The translations under genes were made by a program, and so were the position numbers. Below the pieces are notes generated by a model. The model saw nothing but the letters and a program-made list of their open reading frames with translations, did not search any database and was not told where the DNA came from. DNA of 28,307 nt from a virus: the IMG/VR virus record IMGVR_UViG_3300050013_000110, positions 1-28,307 of that record. One strand, written 5' to 3'. Positions 5,165 through 19,954 of this stretch are shown in pieces. Each line of letters begins with the position of its first letter. Within the stretch, counting starts at the first letter, position 1.

Positions 5165-5495
5165 ATTGGTGATCCTGACGTTCGCCGAGTATGAATCTCT
5201 GATGTGCCGGACAGAAGACGCCGAGGCGCACGCTGCGGACTTCGCCGAAGAGCTAGATAGGGTTCGTTCTAATTATGAGATTGATGTACTGGACGCGTTC
5301 AACGCGGGAAAGTTTCATGCTGCGGGCGGGTATGGCAAAGCCCTCAAAGCGGTGCGGGCCAAACTCCAGGAGACAGAGACGTTGCTGTTGGCAACGGCGT
5401 CACAGCGATTCGAGATGCAGCATCTGCTTGAAAAGTGGCAGCCATTGGTGGAGGCACTCGAAACAACGCCAGGCCAGTTCACGGTGGTACCATGA
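5148..5495 (+). CDS. Hypothetical coiled-coil protein, 115 aa
   Basis: ATG 5148 follows AAGGAGGGCC. The protein is mostly helical (EDAEAHAADFAEELDRVRSN, then AVRAKLQETETLLLATASQR), which suits a coiled coil. It has no Cys and no catalytic motif. The end TVVP* overlaps the next ATG (ATGA). Proteins like this are common in phage early operons, where their role is unknown. Confidence 0.7.
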   Translation: MKKLGKLVILTFAEYESLMCRTEDAEAHAADFAEELDRVRSNYEIDVLDAFNAGKFHAAGGYGKALKAVRAKLQETETLLLATASQRFEMQHLLEKWQPLVEALETTPGQFTVVP

Positions 5496-5569
5496 AGTGG
5501 TCATCGCGTGGGACAGAACCCATCAGTTGGTTTGATATCCTCGCGCCTGACACAAAGGAGAAGCCATGA
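5492..5569 (+). CDS. Micro-ORF, 25 aa, coupled at both ends
   Basis: The frame reads MKWSSRGTEPISWFDIL and ends in APDTKEKP. Both junctions are ATGA overlaps, which is the pattern of the real genes around it. The last codons encode the ribosome binding site of the next gene (ACAAAGGAGAAGCC). The C-terminus resembles those of the products at 11044 (LAPDTKEGK) and 11364 (TPAPKEKP), so it may be the surviving tail of a once longer paralogue. Confidence 0.45.
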   Translation: MKWSSRGTEPISWFDILAPDTKEKP

Positions 5570-5772
5570 AGTTATCTGTGGAAAGAACTGAGAAGCAACA
5601 GAGAAAGGCAGTCTCTAATGCCATTCAGGACAATATCCGCAAGGGATTCATGGAGCGTGTCTCTCGTGGAGTCTATCGTCTGACTCCTGCCGGAATCGCC
5701 CATACCGAAGCGATGCTTGGCCCTGAACTTGTAGCAAAGATGAATGCTCTTGACCCGAAGGTGAAGCCATGA
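5566..5772 (+). CDS. Small winged-helix-like protein, 68 aa
   Basis: ATG 5566 overlaps the previous stop and follows AAAGGAG. The segment FMERVSRGVYRLTPAG reads like the wing of a winged-helix domain, and the first 30 residues would be the helices (KQQRKAVSNAIQDNIRKG). A DNA-binding regulator role is possible but rests only on this resemblance. It ends in DPKVKP with a further ATGA junction. Confidence 0.55.
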   Translation: MKLSVERTEKQQRKAVSNAIQDNIRKGFMERVSRGVYRLTPAGIAHTEAMLGPELVAKMNALDPKVKP

Positions 5773-9897: not shown

Positions 9898-9910
9898 TGT
9901 AATTTACCCC

Positions 9911-9938
9911 TTGCAGGAATTACGAAACTCCGTATAAT
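9911..9938 (+). promoter_or_regulatory. Sigma70-type promoter TTGCAG-16-TATAAT
   Basis: TTGCAG (9911-9916), a 16-base spacer and TATAAT (9933-9938) lie in the 97-base gap before the gene at 9995. Bases from TACCCC before the -35 to TAGTA after the -10 are closely matched by the minus-strand promoter at 14523-14550. Expected start is near 9945. Confidence 0.75.
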
Positions 9939-9994
9939 AGTAATATAGGAAATACGGGCAAGTCGCTATCGGCGCACCGTAATAGGAGGTTCAA

Positions 9995-10561
9995 ATGGGT
10001 GAAAACTACAGCAGCAGGAAGTGGACGGTTTCTGACATTATCGACACCTACGGCCCGTCTAAGATGGGGTCGTTCAAGCTGACCTTCAAGGCGACGGACG
10101 GGAATATCTCCACTACCGTCAAAAAGTGGTTCAATAAGGGCGAGGCATTGTGGGAGAACGGCAAGGAGTTCACCGCTGCGCTTGAGGAAGTCACCAATAC
10201 CTACGGCACCGATCTCATGGTGAAAGAGGACAAGCCCGCTTTCGGGGGTGGTTTCAAGAAGGATGACCCTCAAAAGGAAGCCCGCATCATGCGGGGCAAC
10301 GCCCTGAACGCGGCGAGTTATCTGTTCGCGGGGAAGGGAAAGGACTGCCAGGGCGCAATGTGGGCCACCTTCCGTGCGATGGATGAGTTCCTGAAAACAG
10401 AGAAGCGGGTTAGAATGTCCACCACCGAGCAGCACGCGGCCATCGTCAAGATGTTCAAGGACGATATTCCAAACGCCCGCGCCGCAGTGTGGAGCAAGTT
10501 CGGGCGGGAGTATATTGAGGAACTTTCGTTCGAGGAGGCGGCTTCTTTTCGTGGGGAATGA
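9995..10561 (+). CDS. Possible ssDNA-binding/recombination protein, 188 aa
   Basis: It is first in a transcription unit, with its own promoter and TAGGAGG (9982-9988) before ATG 9995, so high expression is likely. The N-terminal 85 residues (SFKLTFKATDGNISTTVKKW) are beta-rich and could be an OB fold. After a Gly-rich hinge (AFGGGFKKDD) comes a helical part (QKEARIMRGNALNAASYLF). This plan, OB-like domain followed by a helix rich in Arg, Asn and Ala, is seen in phage ssDNA-binding proteins, and the neighbouring Cas4-like nuclease fits a recombination pair. I did not recognise the family for certain. Gene order and promoter are seen; the role is inference. Confidence 0.5.
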   Translation: MGENYSSRKWTVSDIIDTYGPSKMGSFKLTFKATDGNISTTVKKWFNKGEALWENGKEFTAALEEVTNTYGTDLMVKEDKPAFGGGFKKDDPQKEARIMRGNALNAASYLFAGKGKDCQGAMWATFRAMDEFLKTEKRVRMSTTEQHAAIVKMFKDDIPNARAAVWSKFGREYIEELSFEEAASFRGE

Positions 10562-13379: not shown

Positions 13380-13401
13380 AAGGCCCCGCAAGGGGCCTTT
13401 T
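13380..13401 (+). terminator. Rho-independent terminator after the HNH-like gene
   Basis: The 8-bp stem AAGGCCCC / GGGGCCTT (13380-13387, 13392-13399) has a GCAA tetraloop and a TTTT tail, 5 bases after the stop at 13374. It ends the rightward arm. Confidence 0.85.
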
Positions 13402-13747: not shown

Positions 13748-13878
13748 GCAACTTGTAAGGATTACTTGTGAGTTCAAACCAAATGACACTATGATGTGCT
13801 GGTTTGATTGCCGAGGACGCACATCATAGTGTCATTTGGAGTGCAAGAAAGTCAGCAACTCACTTGCTAAAAAGTTGC
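13748..13878 (+). repeat. Nested inverted repeat with perfect 21-bp inner arms
   Basis: The inner arms 13779-13799 and 13819-13839 are perfect complements over 21 bp (left arm begins CCAAATGACAC, ends GATGTGC), with a 19-base loop. Outer complementary pairs continue the nesting: GTGAGTT (13768-13774) with AACTCAC (13857-13863), and GCAACTT (13748-13754) with AAGTTGC (13872-13878). A rival pairing exists: TCAAACC (13774-13780) with GGTTTGA (13801-13807) in the loop. GCAACT at 13855 can also pair with 13873-13878. Confidence 0.8.
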
Positions 13879-14345: not shown

Positions 14346-14516
14346 TGAAAAGACCCCCAGTCACGGAACGGGCTGGGGGTACGAGAGGCTACCGTATTCT
14401 AGCCTTATGGTCCTGGCTCCTTAGCCTGCCCCCGTAGGTCGAACCTTGCGGGGTACACATTTCAGAACCTGGCGCGTGCCCTTTGGCACGGCTTTAATCG
14501 CGAAGGCTAACCCTTC
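14346..14516 (-). ncRNA. Candidate structured small RNA, about 170 nt, family unknown
   Basis: Bounded by a promoter (14523-14550) and a terminator (14353-14380), this stretch has no reading frame with a binding site. Helices seen on the minus strand are: GAAGG/CCTTC (14516-14512 with 14506-14502); CGTGCC/GGCACG with AAAG loop (14490-14475); a long-range 7-bp helix GGTTCTG/CAGGACC (14469-14463 with 14415-14409) with one G-T pair; inside it a hairpin CCCCG/CGGGG with inner AGGT/ACCT (14453-14430) and a small GGCT/AGCC hairpin (14426-14415, competing at one base); then AGGCTA/TAGCCT (14405-14386) and the terminator stem. It is not a tRNA (no T-arm or CCA-end layout), and I found no hammerhead core. 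Ends are inferred. Confidence 0.6.
14347..14380 (-). terminator. Terminator of the small RNA / late operon
   Basis: On the minus strand an 8-bp stem ACCCCCAG/CTGGGGGT (14380-14373 with 14360-14353), a 12-base loop, then CTTTTC. It would also stop late-gene transcripts running leftward. Confidence 0.7.
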
Positions 14517-14522
14517 TATACT

Positions 14523-14550
14523 ATTATACGGGTTTTAGTGTTTCCTGCAA
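14523..14550 (-). promoter_or_regulatory. Minus-strand promoter TTGCAG-16-TATAAT, twin of the one at 9911
   Basis: TTGCAG (14550-14545), 16 bases, TATAAT (14528-14523), flanked by ACCCC before and AGTA after, as at 9905-9943. The -35 lies inside the last codons of the metallopeptidase gene. Expected start is near 14516. Confidence 0.7.
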
Positions 14551-14891
14551 GGGGTACACTGGCCCTTTTTCTTCTTTTTCTTCCGCTCCACCAATGCTTT
14601 GACCATTTGCTTGGATACCTGATAGTTGTTGTCCTCATCAAGCCCGCATCCCGTCAAGTATTGGAGACAGTGGAATAATTCATGGGCTATCGCCAGGCGA
14701 GTTCGGTACTGTGACATTTTCTCCATGATAAGAACCTCAACCGTTTGATAGCCCTTTGTTCCAGGGGGAACGTTGGTCACTCCCTCTGGTGCTTTCCCGT
14801 CTGGTTCCTCCCCGACAGAACGGGGAACGTCCTTGTAAGCCTCTAAAAGCTTTGCGGGTACTTTCTCAACGGTTATCACCGTGTATTTCAT
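14535..14891 (-). CDS. Mini zinc metallopeptidase (HExxH), 118 aa
   Basis: Start ATG (14891-14889) overlaps the stop of the 1688-residue gene (ATGA). IAHELFHCLQYL carries a complete HExxH zinc motif (H70, E71, H74) in a helix, as in gluzincin/SprT-like and ImmA-like small peptidases. A third ligand is not obvious, though LDEDNN follows 10 residues later. The C-terminal tail has six Lys in a row and CTPC. There is no signal peptide, so it is cytoplasmic or packaged in the virion. As the last gene of the late operon it could process a virion protein; this is inference. Confidence 0.7.
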   Translation of the reverse strand: MKYTVITVEKVPAKLLEAYKDVPRSVGEEPDGKAPEGVTNVPPGTKGYQTVEVLIMEKMSQYRTRLAIAHELFHCLQYLTGCGLDEDNNYQVSKQMVKALVERKKKKKKGQCTPCRKH

Positions 14892-17800
14892 GGGGCCAGT
14901 TCCTCATAATTGCCCTTGGGCCGCCAACTGAAAGGCCCGAACTTCTTGATGCCGTAAGTCTCGGGGTTCTCCGCGATGGTCGCAAAGGTCATAATGATGT
15001 TGTCTGTCGCGGTAGTCATGTAGACCTTTGCGTCAGCAGGGTATGTCTTGGCGTTGTGAATGAGTTGTCCAATCGCACTAGCCCGCCCGTTGACAAAGTG
15101 CTTGAGCGCGGCGTTGCTCGACCTGCTGGTGGCATCTACGAGAGCGTAGAAGTCATCGACAGCGGCGTTGCTGCTTGTTGTGGGGTCTTTGACAATGAAC
15201 CGCTTGGTGAGAGGGGAGGCTTGTGTAGACGTTCCCTGCCCCACCATGTCGAAGACGTACTGTACCTGCGAGGGAATGTCCGCTAAGAATGACCGCACCA
15301 GAAAGGCCGCTTGCCCCTCGTCCATTCCCGTCTTCATAAGGGCGGCTTCCAGTGGATTTGCGGGGGGTGTACCGACGGCTGCCGTTACTGCTGCCCCAGT
15401 AAAGAAGTTCAGGTTGTACCTATATTGCAGGAAGATATTGAGGGCGGGGGGAAGGAAGAAGTTTTCCGGCCCAGGAAGAACCGAGACCGCCTGCCTCGCA
15501 ATGTCCAGTGGGTCACCCTTGTAGCCGAGTACGTAGTCTGTTGCGGCCTTGATGGGCTGGAACCCAATGGGAACGGGGAGTTTCACCCACCCGCCCGAAG
15601 GGGTCGGAAAGTAGAAGTACGAAGCGCGGTCGCGCAGGAGCTTGTACTCTTTCTCTTTCCCAGCCTCTTTGATGGCGAGGGCACTGACAAGGGCAAAGAT
15701 AATCGTGGCAAGATTACGCCCCGCCAGTTTCTCGGCTCCCTGTTTTCTAGAGAAGGTTCCGCCCTTGTCCCCGATGGGAAGTCCGAAGAAGGTGTTACGA
15801 TAGGCCACCCTCATAACGGCGATTGTTGCTCGCGTAAAAGGAATACAACTGGGGATGAAGTCATTGAAGAACGTGCCGTGCAGAGCAAAGAAACCAGTGG
15901 AGGCAAAGTAGCCGTGGAGCTGGTCTAAATATGTTCCGCCTCGGTCAAGGATGCTCTCCGCAATGACGGAGCGGGTAAGTGATTCCCCGATTTCGTTGGG
16001 GTAGGTTATGATAGATGTAATGGTCTTCAGCGCCTCGATTGCCCTTGTTCCTTTCGACATCATCGGGTCGCGGTAGGAGTCAAACCACTGGGACAATCCT
16101 GGACTCTTGAACGCCCGAATCGTGCCCTTGACTAAGCCCTTTGGAGTAAAGGGAACCGTCCCCACCCCCTGTATGCTATCTCGCATAATATTATAGAGAC
16201 CGAATGCGGGGTTGAGACCTGTAGCAAAAAGACGAAGTGCGGTTGTCGGAGATTTGACTAGCCACTTTTCCCATGTTGGAACTTCTGGCTTGGCAAGGGT
16301 CAGGTTGTGAACCGACTTGGTGACGTTCGTGTCGTGGACGTCGTAAGCCCTGTCTACCCCGTTTTCTTTCAGGTGGACGACGCTGTCGGAAAGGACGGTC
16401 GTTGCCACCTCGGAGTTCTTGTTTGACCTTACTGCCTCCCGCTTGGCATTGTTGATACCCTGCGCTCTGATGGCGTCACGATAGACCGCCAATAATCCAG
16501 GAAGCGGTTCAACAACCTTATCAAGTTCGGTCAGGCCGTGGGTACGTTCCAGCGGGGCAACGCCACCACGGTCAAAGATGTCCGTTCTTCCTGCCGAAAG
16601 GGAGACATAATAGTTAGGATGCGCCTTTTCATTGGCATAGGTTTCAGGTGAGAGGAATTGCCTGTAGAACTCTGGGAGGAGTGCGTTAGCTTTTCCAAGC
16701 TCTTGCGCTGCGGCCATGTAATCCACGAACAACTGCGGCTCGTTCTTCTGAAAGTTGACCAAGCTCATTCTCGCGTCGTCGATGTGCTGTTGCGCGAGCT
16801 TCATCTTGTCGGGGTCGAGTCCTGCGGTTGCCTCAATGGGAATACCCGCCCGCTGCAAGTGCTGGAGAAACTTGCCGTAGTTGGGGCCGTACTGTTTAAG
16901 CTGGCGGTTCAAGATGGCGGGGGCAAACTCTCCCTCAACGGGAACCTTGTTGCCGGTCTCGTCAATGTAGAAGGGGTGAGCGTATTCCTCTCGCAACACC
17001 TCGTCGGCCTCAATCGCCATTGTCATCCATTCCGCTCCGGCGGGAGTTTTCATCAACCCGTCGAACTGGTTTTCATACCGGCGGACTTGAAGGTCTCTCC
17101 CCTCCTTGAACTTAGCCATGCCGGAAAGGCTAGTGTCCTTCGTTCCGGCGGTATTCTGAATGTAGTTGTCAAACCCCTTGCCTGTATTGCTAACACTTTT
17201 TAACACGGCGGGGCTAGTAACGCTAGTAGTACCGTTTAGTTCTATCGTAGAATAGTCAATGAGGCCGTGCGCGGGAGAGGCGTTTCCGAGTGAGGGGGCC
17301 GCCGCTGGCGCAGAGGTCGAAGTCAAGAATGAAGCAGGGACACTGGCGGGGTTTGCAATCTCGCCATGTGCCACCACCTGTTCTTCCACCTTGCCGTCAT
17401 ATACCGCCTTATTGTTGTTGATGGTCTCCTGCGCCCGACCGATGGCGTCCTTGACCGTGGCACCCTGACCGATAAGATTGCCAGAGCGTGCTTCGATGAC
17501 AGAGAAAGGACGAGATGTAGCAAGACTTGCCGAGTGATTTGCAAGGCCCTCTGCTTTTGCTTCCTCTTCCGTCAACCGTGTCAGATAATAGGTATGGGAA
17601 TCTCCCTTGAGTTCCAGTCGCTTTCCTGTCTCTGGAATAAATGGGCCAGCAATTCCTTTCTCTGCTGCCGTCGTCGGAGAATAAGCACGGACACTTTCGG
17701 TTCCAGAGGCAAGCCGATAAGTCATAGGGGTTTTAATTGTTGCTACATCCCCTCCGCCTACCCCGTCTGTCCTGCGAGAACCTACCGCGTCTATCCACTT

Positions 17801-19954
17801 GCCCCATTTTGCCACACTAGCCCCTGTTTTGGCTTCCCCTTGAGGGGAAACGGGGGGAGACGTACTAATACTGGTCTTTTGATTTAAGATTGTCGTGGCG
17901 GTGCCAATTTGAGGGGTAGTTGATAAGGGGGGGGAAACGGAGGGCGGAATCGGGGCAATTTGGACGGCAGGTGTTTCCATTTTGGAAATAGTTGGGGCGG
18001 GTTGTGTTACCTCCCCCAGCAGTTTATTCCCCTCAATACCATACCACTCTTTCAGCTGGGGTTTGTCTACCCCCATCGCTTCAAGCGGGGTAGTGCCATT
18101 CGTAAACATCACTACCCGCCGTTTGGTGTCCAAGACAACATTCGTGGCGGTGGGGTGCTGAACCTGAACGGATTTCAGATCCACCTTCGCCGTGACATCA
18201 ACGAGGTTAGCCTTCTTGACATCAATGGTGGGGATTGTGTGGTCAATGGCGCGGGGCGGTGTAATCGCATCACGAAACGCGGAAGGGGTGATGGGTACCG
18301 CCTTGACGGGGGGCACCACTTGAGCGGGCTTCTGTTCCCCAATGAGGGCATAGATTTCATCACCGACATCATAGGGAACACGAGCGGGGTTCGATTCAGC
18401 GGAAAGTAGCTGCTTGAACTTCCCAATCGCGGCCACCCTATTGGGTGAAGCATTGATGCGGTTCGTCAATTCTTCCAGGTAGAACGGTTCTTCGGGGATG
18501 CTGCCGTACTTAGCAACGATGTCGGCACTTAAGCGATTGGCGGGTCTTAGGGCCGCCCCCTCGTCCATTCCTTCGGTTGCCTCACCTTGTCCTGCGGCGA
18601 GAACAATCTGTTCCGCTAATGCCTTGTCGGACATCTTGGCAACGGTCTGTTCTGTTTTCTTGCTCCAAGCTGTCAATTCGGTCTGGTCGGCAGAACCACC
18701 AATGATTCGGTATGAACCCTTGGGGATAACAACGGGTTCATCTCCGCTGACCTGAATCTCGTCTGCGGCTTGCACCTTCAGGCGATTGACTGGCAAGGCT
18801 GAATGGTCAATCTCAAATATCATTCCTGCCCCGCCGTTTCTCGTGGCGTAATCTTTTGCCGTTCCTAGCACTGGCGTAAGAGAAACGCCGACTTGTTTCC
18901 CCCCGAAGTTTTCTGATGGATTCAAAACAAGGTCGCCGTTCGCGTTGATAAAGGGAATGGTAGAGGCTTCTCTCGTTCCATGATATAGAACGGCGGGCGC
19001 TACCACGGGCGCGGGAGTTTTCACTACCGTTGGCGCGGGTAGTGTTCCATTTCCCATCGGAATGGCGGGTGCGGTTGAATGGACGAGACCGGCGGGCATG
19101 GGGATAGACTGGAAAATCCCCGTTTGAGCAATAGTCCGTACGGCAGAGGGAACAATATTTTGTGCAACCGTTTGAGCAGATGGGTTCTGTGAAGCGAGCG
19201 ATATTTGATTCAGCGACCGCGACAGCGTGGACGCGTTACTGGCGAGGGCGTTCAATTGAGCGGTATTTCCGCCCGTTCGTGCCACAAGGGAGGAAATGGA
19301 GTTTGCCGTTTCCTCGTCCATGCCTGGATTTGCCTGAGCAACCCGAACGGCAAGGTCATTTGAGGCAACCCCGCCCTCGACCGTCGGCCAGTTCCACTTG
19401 GAGTTCATCTCCCTCGTAAAATTAATAGCGCTTACAAGTCCCCCGACCACTTGAACGCCAATTTTTATAGCGGCCCCCATCGTGGCTAGACTGGCAGCAA
19501 AATCAACATATCGGTTGCCGGTAATACCCCCCTCTGCGGGGGCGTTTTGGCCCATGAAAGCCTTTGCTGTTGCGTTGTTGTATGTGTCTACGCCTTCCTT
19601 AAGCGCGTCAAAGAAGGACTTGCCCGCAAGAGCGGCGTACATCTGCTTTCCTTCCTGCGTCCGTTGTTCGACGGTTTTACCCGTCAACCATAAAGAGGCG
19701 GGAGATGTTGGCTTCGGAGCGACTGCCTTCATTCTCTGTTGCTCAACGGGCGTGACGAGAGGGCGACCAATAAACGGAGTAGACGACGCAGCGGGGGCGG
19801 GGACTTGCCGCACGGGGATTTGTTTCGGCGCCGGTATCGGAGTGAACTTTATGGCGTTGAAGTCAATCTTCCGCCCCTTGGCGGGCGTCGTCAGTGCGGT
19901 GACTTTTGGGGGAGTTCCCCTAAGAACTATTTTGGAGAAGTCAATGAGGGGCAT
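14888..19954 (-). CDS. Giant internal virion (ejection) protein with ART-like domain, 1688 aa
   Basis: The N-terminus (LIDFSKIVLRGT) is followed by a Pro/Ala-rich region and a helical region. Residues about 322-420 look like an ADP-ribosyltransferase fold: LYHGTREAST, then GVSLTP, AKDYATRNGGAG, EID, and VSGDEPVVIPKG near the end. Pro/Thr-rich linkers follow to about 900, where LIDYSTIELNGT repeats the N-terminal motif. The C-terminal 780 residues are helical (NPAFGLYNIMRDSIQG, then SLTRSVIAESILDRGG) with hydrophobic stretches (NLATIIFALVSALAIK, INFLQ-like helices). They resemble the large polyvalent proteins of podoviruses that enter the host ahead of the DNA. It follows the 637-residue gene with no gap. 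The ART call is moderate; the virion role comes from size and context. Confidence 0.7.
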   Translation of the reverse strand: MPLIDFSKIVLRGTPPKVTALTTPAKGRKIDFNAIKFTPIPAPKQIPVRQVPAPAASSTPFIGRPLVTPVEQQRMKAVAPKPTSPASLWLTGKTVEQRTQEGKQMYAALAGKSFFDALKEGVDTYNNATAKAFMGQNAPAEGGITGNRYVDFAASLATMGAAIKIGVQVVGGLVSAINFTREMNSKWNWPTVEGGVASNDLAVRVAQANPGMDEETANSISSLVARTGGNTAQLNALASNASTLSRSLNQISLASQNPSAQTVAQNIVPSAVRTIAQTGIFQSIPMPAGLVHSTAPAIPMGNGTLPAPTVVKTPAPVVAPAVLYHGTREASTIPFINANGDLVLNPSENFGGKQVGVSLTPVLGTAKDYATRNGGAGMIFEIDHSALPVNRLKVQAADEIQVSGDEPVVIPKGSYRIIGGSADQTELTAWSKKTEQTVAKMSDKALAEQIVLAAGQGEATEGMDEGAALRPANRLSADIVAKYGSIPEEPFYLEELTNRINASPNRVAAIGKFKQLLSAESNPARVPYDVGDEIYALIGEQKPAQVVPPVKAVPITPSAFRDAITPPRAIDHTIPTIDVKKANLVDVTAKVDLKSVQVQHPTATNVVLDTKRRVVMFTNGTTPLEAMGVDKPQLKEWYGIEGNKLLGEVTQPAPTISKMETPAVQIAPIPPSVSPPLSTTPQIGTATTILNQKTSISTSPPVSPQGEAKTGASVAKWGKWIDAVGSRRTDGVGGGDVATIKTPMTYRLASGTESVRAYSPTTAAEKGIAGPFIPETGKRLELKGDSHTYYLTRLTEEEAKAEGLANHSASLATSRPFSVIEARSGNLIGQGATVKDAIGRAQETINNNKAVYDGKVEEQVVAHGEIANPASVPASFLTSTSAPAAAPSLGNASPAHGLIDYSTIELNGTTSVTSPAVLKSVSNTGKGFDNYIQNTAGTKDTSLSGMAKFKEGRDLQVRRYENQFDGLMKTPAGAEWMTMAIEADEVLREEYAHPFYIDETGNKVPVEGEFAPAILNRQLKQYGPNYGKFLQHLQRAGIPIEATAGLDPDKMKLAQQHIDDARMSLVNFQKNEPQLFVDYMAAAQELGKANALLPEFYRQFLSPETYANEKAHPNYYVSLSAGRTDIFDRGGVAPLERTHGLTELDKVVEPLPGLLAVYRDAIRAQGINNAKREAVRSNKNSEVATTVLSDSVVHLKENGVDRAYDVHDTNVTKSVHNLTLAKPEVPTWEKWLVKSPTTALRLFATGLNPAFGLYNIMRDSIQGVGTVPFTPKGLVKGTIRAFKSPGLSQWFDSYRDPMMSKGTRAIEALKTITSIITYPNEIGESLTRSVIAESILDRGGTYLDQLHGYFASTGFFALHGTFFNDFIPSCIPFTRATIAVMRVAYRNTFFGLPIGDKGGTFSRKQGAEKLAGRNLATIIFALVSALAIKEAGKEKEYKLLRDRASYFYFPTPSGGWVKLPVPIGFQPIKAATDYVLGYKGDPLDIARQAVSVLPGPENFFLPPALNIFLQYRYNLNFFTGAAVTAAVGTPPANPLEAALMKTGMDEGQAAFLVRSFLADIPSQVQYVFDMVGQGTSTQASPLTKRFIVKDPTTSSNAAVDDFYALVDATSRSSNAALKHFVNGRASAIGQLIHNAKTYPADAKVYMTTATDNIIMTFATIAENPETYGIKKFGPFSWRPKGNYEELAP

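Follow-up and report, generated by a model that had tools for sequence, protein, structure and literature searches.

What is encoded in the short stretch that follows the last late gene of this phage? The window (the whole 28,307-nt stretch of viral DNA that was analysed) carries there about 170 nt in which no reading frame is conserved; an earlier note, made from the sequence alone, had described this segment as a complete transcription unit for a non-coding RNA, equipped with a promoter and a terminator. Comparison with related phages supports that description. We read the RNA as belonging to a new family of modular phage RNAs, and the version in the window as a deletion derivative. The existence of the family is well supported by comparison of the related sequences. 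The features of the window and the order of the modules in its relatives are collected in Table 1.

The promoter proposed for the unit is present on the minus strand, with TTGCAG at 14550-14545 and TATAAT at 14528-14523 separated by a spacer of 16 nt. Its -35 element is poor, agreeing with the sigma-70 consensus at 3/6 positions, so a consensus sigma-70 scan of the window did not call it. Searching the unit against its own genome revealed a second copy that agrees with it at 32/32 specified positions, and the TTGCAGGAA box belongs to both (14556-14519 and 9905-9942). When sites were scored against the aligned consensus TACCCCTTGCAGGAAnnACnnAAnnCCGTATAATAGTA, which has 32 specified positions, the window yielded two sites, both at 32/32. 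G001, G002 and G003 each have two sites at 30-32/32, plus a third at 21-22, and G008 has three at 25-28/32, the site of the RNA gene scoring 28/32. The RNA-gene promoter is retained at 28-32/32 in the relatives, while no site in ten shuffled versions of the 43.6-kb G001 scored above 20/32. In G001, the second site precedes a 191-aa early ORF and the third lies just upstream of an early gene with a ribosome-binding site and ATG. These copies point to a genuine promoter that is a member of a phage-specific family. Since the same family stands before early genes, the promoter is of the early-gene type, though the RNA sits on the late strand. The locus was earlier labelled late, which is right as to place, the site following the last late gene, but may be wrong as to timing. 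Members of the family, CTTGCAGGAAACAC-n-CGTATAATAGTA, lie at 9905-9942 in the window and at 16318-16355 and 29903-29940 in G001 (L016, L017); their -35 box is extended and differs from the sigma-70 consensus, and the family is common to the RNA gene and early genes.

Table 1. Features of the RNA locus in the window, and module orders (read by eye) in the window and its relatives.
Feature	Position	Strand	Remarks
Last late-operon gene, 118 aa, IAHELFHC zincin-like motif (HExxH)	14535..14891	(-)	Directly upstream of the RNA
Phage-family promoter TACCCCTTGCAGGAAnnACnnAAnnCCGTATAATAGTA	14519..14556	(-)	Overlaps final codons of the HExxH ORF; precedes the RNA gene
Promoter, second copy	9905..9942	(+)	Upstream of 188-aa early ORF 9995-10561
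RNA gene, ~170 nt	14346..14517	(-)	Ends inferred from promoter and terminator
Weak module A copy, three-way junction GGUU-hp1-AUUAAA-hp2-GCCAG	14469..14517	(-)	Match to the R3 model
Module B hairpin GUACCCCGCAAGGUU...CUACGGGGGCAGG-CUAAGGAGCCAGGAC	14409..14456	(-)	B1/B2 fusion; deletion junction within CTACGGGGGCAGGC
Hairpin CCAUAAGGCUAGAAUACGGUAGCC, loop AGAAYACGGU	14381..14410	(-)	Paralogue of the relatives' module C
Terminator hairpin (module E) CCCCCAG-loop-CUGGGGG, tail UCUUUUCA	14346..14379	(-)	
Module order, window			A-B-hairpin-E
Module order, G001			A-B1-C-B2-hairpin-E
Module order, G008			A-C-D
Module order, L050			A-B-C-D-A-E
Module order, L051			C-D
Module order, L055			B-A
Module order, L056			B-A-D-E
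Module order, L060			A-D
Module order, L065			A-D
Module order, L079			B-(A-like)-D
Modules, L080			At least 5 A copies, and D

At the other end of the unit, the terminator with a T-tail is also present. Its stem pairs 14379-14373 with 14360-14354, the tail is TCTTTTCA, and the hairpin is almost unchanged in L001, L050 and L056. In minimum-free-energy (MFE) folding, 196 of 200 dinucleotide-shuffled versions were less stable than the predicted transcript (14522-14346; z -2.1); folded with the promoter included, the RNA gives z -1.45.

The earlier picture of a self-contained RNA of ~170 nt is only partly right, since this length does not represent the ancestral form, which appears to have been ~400 nt long. 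A search with the 118-aa ORF recovered four relatives, three of them close and one distant. The three close relatives carry an RNA of ~400 nt that has the same promoter and terminator and the same 5' and 3' parts; a further 222-225 nt lie between two copies of the hairpin GTACCCCGCAAG-N-CTACGGGGGCAGGC. The window passes from copy B1 to copy B2 within the 14-nt identical stretch CTACGGGGGCAGGC: the first part of its module B equals B1 of L001 and the last part equals B2, with the 14-nt exact repeat at the junction. The full-length version, 471 nt from promoter to terminator, is identical in three other metagenomes, and the ~400-nt version of a relative folds with z -3.4, none of 100 shuffles being as good. 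The window RNA thus appears to be a shortened allele that lost ~225 nt through recombination between the two hairpin copies. Because the window matches G002 at 99.9% identity across 5.9 kb on one side of the deletion and 3.8 kb on the other, this seems to have been a strain-level event. Assembly collapse is disfavoured as the origin of the short form and a real deletion is likelier, because the exact repeat is just 14 nt long, below the usual word sizes of assemblers; a chimera is the less likely alternative.

Near-complete identity extends over ~1.9 kb, from about -500 to +1450 of the RNA promoter, among G001, G002, G003 and the window, which come from different metagenomes. The DNA on either side of this block differs by 1-10% or more, so that the block may have recombined recently or be strongly constrained as a whole. 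Purifying selection on the RNA was considered from its 100% identity in the close relatives and rejected: because the flanks are equally identical, this identity says nothing about selection for the RNA.

The deletion also bears on the 7-bp long-range helix, GGTTCTG/CAGGACC (14469-14463 / 14415-14409), that had been thought to enclose the core of the RNA. Both of its sequences exist and they pair in the MFE structure of the window transcript. The helix is invariant in the close relatives, was not seen in the more distant ones and has no covariation in its favour. The full-length MFE structure is without it; there, GCCAGG on the 5' side pairs with CCUGGC of the segment that the window has lost. 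Since the deletion joined its two parts and only the window MFE structure has it, the helix is probably a by-product of the deletion; as a specific feature of the RNA it is unsupported.

A search with the terminase of G001 brought in G008, a genome of 43.3 kb mostly 70-87% identical to G001, whose corresponding site holds a diverged RNA of ~340 nt, preceded by the same promoter. A pattern for the shared hairpin led to L050 and L051, an alignment of the metallophosphoesterase gene that neighbours these two to a further set, and a pattern for module D to L079 and L080; a pattern match in L049 was rejected as chance. In about ten more phages of the group, the last late gene is followed directly by RNAs composed of recurring modules. 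These were distinguished by eye as A (GGUUC-hp1-GAUUAAA-hp2-GCCAG), B, C, D and E, and their combinations vary. No array follows the last late gene in L061 and L062, the most distant of the metallophosphoesterase relatives. The promoter, module B, C-like hairpin and terminator of the window and L001 all recur in the arrays of relatives. For the B and C-like hairpins of the window, the support consists of few copies read by eye; the C-like hairpin has stems GGCU/AGCC versus GGUC/GACC, with an identical loop in L001, L044, L050 and L051. The 3' modules vary as well, with terminator E in L001, L050 and L056 and other ends in L044, L065, L079 and L080.

In the metallophosphoesterase subgroup, the interval from the stop codon of the late gene to the array consists of tens of bases and TGACGCAGTA repeats, and no TATAAT-type promoter was seen within it. 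One to three TGACGCAGT repeats lie in this interval in L050, L051, L055, L056, L060 and L079, all of the promoter-less subgroup, and are a possible processing or regulatory site. In L060, an HNH-endonuclease-like ORF stands directly after module D (~5258-5728), in an otherwise non-coding region, and homing endonucleases may help to move modules.

Structural conservation was assessed for modules D and A. RNAalifold found compensatory changes at 23 of the 34 pairs of module D in an alignment of six sequences. In this module 98.5% of cells are paired, and both-side changes at 23/34 pairs compare with at most 5 when the partners are slid and with 0/500 shuffles. Across 8 distinct sequences of D, double changes occur in 56 cells, and the D model matches L079 (138 bits) and L080 (135 bits), neither of which was used in building it. 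A search with the same model found no module D in the window or in its close relatives. Module A was aligned with an iterated covariance model, in which a seed found distant copies and the model was then rebuilt. Under the rebuilt model, 93% of cells are paired in 14 distinct copies and 21 cells carry double changes, compared with 5.6 in shuffles and at most 7 with slid partners; this alignment was fitted to the structure and so leans towards it. A reading of 13 copies by hand gives 95/104 cells paired versus 76 in shuffles, a count matched by 0/5000 shuffles. In the window, module A is the top R3 match in the stretch and lies at the expected place, a weak match of 7.3 bits (E 0.047, filters off) that scores below the 14 copies of the relatives. 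For the complete arrays of two relatives, thermodynamic z values are about -1.3 each. The covariation of modules A and D across homologues is what would be expected of a structured non-coding RNA.

Single copies of module A also occur between early genes, one in G008 (L044:6498-6421) and one in G001 (L016:15540-15463); no solitary copy is present in the window. By inspection, the stems of the two solitary copies differ by compensatory changes (GGCUGG/CCAGCC versus GUCCGG/CCGGAC, and UGGCGG/CCGCCA versus UGACAG/CUGUCA). In both, the loop of the longer arm contains the palindrome CUUAAG, which could form kissing dimers.

The earlier statement that no named phage RNA has this layout holds up. Rfam gave no match in the window (gathering threshold), in the RNA stretch (E up to 5), in L001 or in 124 kb of relatives (gathering threshold); sub-threshold matches to P10, Glutamine-II and miRNA families were rejected as chance. 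The RNA has no nucleotide match in 50,697 phage records, in which merely remote protein matches were found. In the searched bacterial genomes, a protein scan for a host found nothing, and seven pattern matches were not confirmed by the D model. The packaging RNA of phi29 had been offered as a lead. It is similar in length (174 nt, the figure of the earlier note) and has a three-way junction, but the length of the window RNA was produced by deletion. No Rfam packaging RNA matched at E up to 5, and a phi29-type packaging RNA was rejected for want of such support. The terminase of G001 resembles ordinary large terminases, being ~25% similar to those of other phages.

Among other structured phage RNAs, ROOL, which occurs in phages and prophages, is likewise large, non-coding and highly structured and has no known function; both ROOL and GOLLD form RNA-only nanocages (PMC12286853). 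ROOL env-120 is 659 nt long, compared with 170-400 nt here, and ROOL often lies near tRNA genes, whereas ARAGORN found no tRNA or tmRNA gene in the window; moreover, the RNA described here is modular and rearranged between relatives and has no Rfam match. GOLLD resembles it in being phage-borne and multi-domain, with a function that is not known. Many GOLLD RNAs exceed 800 nt, and the window RNA has neither a match to an Rfam family nor a linkage to tRNA genes. The 3' part of GOLLD is conserved, universally so for its 3' domain, and its 5' part less so (PMC12286853), whereas in the RNA described here both ends as well as the middle differ between relatives. In ICP1, an ORF-less RNA of ~800 nt at gp139-gp140 is the most abundant transcript and offers a likeness in kind, as an ORF-less region giving an abundant phage RNA without an assigned role (PMC7567579); it differs in its length and in adjoining a lysis cluster. 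We read the RNA of the window as comparable to ROOL and GOLLD in kind, not in sequence.

We propose that phages of this group carry, at the site after the last late gene, an RNA of ~170-700 nt built from swappable folded modules. The window allele would combine a weak A, a fused B, the C-like hairpin and the terminator. In the subgroup of the window, expression would be driven by the RNA's own early-type promoter, while in the other subgroup the RNA would appear as the tail of the late message. The transcript is expected to accumulate as a stable RNA, shielded by its folds and terminator, and to act in trans by its shape and not by pairing to messages. Action by shape is probable because mostly the fold, not the sequence, is conserved. 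By analogy, it may be a scaffold or decoy that binds a host or phage protein, the ribosome or copies of itself, and a stable trans-acting scaffold or decoy is the most likely role. We hold with fair confidence that a tailed phage here carries a genuine gene for a non-coding RNA that is modular in build, transcribed and stable and acts in trans by shape. More tentatively, its independent modules may form a construction kit, recombining at one site into composite trans-acting RNA machines or RNA-only assemblies, with A also used alone in early messages. Such recombination can be likened to the shuffling of tRNA arrays or of protein domains.

The main rival is that the structure belongs to the 3' end of the late message and acts in cis only, shielding that message against exonucleases or insulating the early and late units, which converge here, with no function in trans. 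That the array consistently follows the last late gene fits this explanation, as does the short, promoter-less interval of the metallophosphoesterase subgroup. However, the dedicated promoter before the RNA in the subgroup of the window would be needless for a 3' UTR, module A also stands alone between early genes, and such elaborate, varied modules exceed the needs of insulation; we regard a cis-acting role as unlikely. RNA-based anti-CRISPRs exist and are a precedent in kind for a decoy or counter-defence RNA, whose modules would imitate host RNAs or RNA-binding defence proteins, or titrate them, and turn over in an arms race. Rapid exchange of modules in close relatives, gain and loss of copies and the early-type promoter all suit such an RNA, yet no Rfam family was matched and the modules are unlike the single repeated unit of a CRISPR repeat, leaving this account rather improbable in our judgement.

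A regulatory antisense RNA that pairs with phage messages would make sense of an early-type promoter of its own and of transcription convergent towards the early operon. The longest exact complementarity to early and late phage messages is, however, 10-11 nt, equal to that of shuffled RNAs, so base-pairing with them is unlikely and an antisense role scarcely credible. It is also very improbable that the locus is a spacer with chance structure, in which promoter and terminator are incidental. The weak advantage of the window version over shuffles (z -1.45 to -2.1) would agree with this, and the window's own modules are just weakly supported. The conserved promoter family and the homologues at the same site speak against it, and the compensatory changes in relatives already contradict it. 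We favour the modular, trans-acting RNA. Large structured phage RNAs of the ROOL and GOLLD type are widespread and their functions are not known. The present family adds separable parts, at least 14 natural copies of a three-way junction and a natural deletion derivative, with which function could be asked module by module. Because module A is found both within composite RNAs and singly between early genes, a common binding partner is suggested, for which the module offers a bait of ~80 nt.

The surroundings of the RNA gene hold several further elements. The 118-aa HExxH ORF has no match in Pfam or PHROGs, and the 1688-aa late ORF at 14888-19954 has none in Pfam or the phage collection. Immediately 3' of the last early ORF lies a perfect 8-bp GC-rich hairpin resembling a terminator (13380-13399). 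In the ORF-poor region that separates the end of the early operon from that of the late operon lies a perfect 21-bp inverted repeat, CCAAATGACACTATGATGTGC / GCACATCATAGTGTCATTTGG, with a 19-nt loop (13779-13839); it is a candidate replication or regulatory site.
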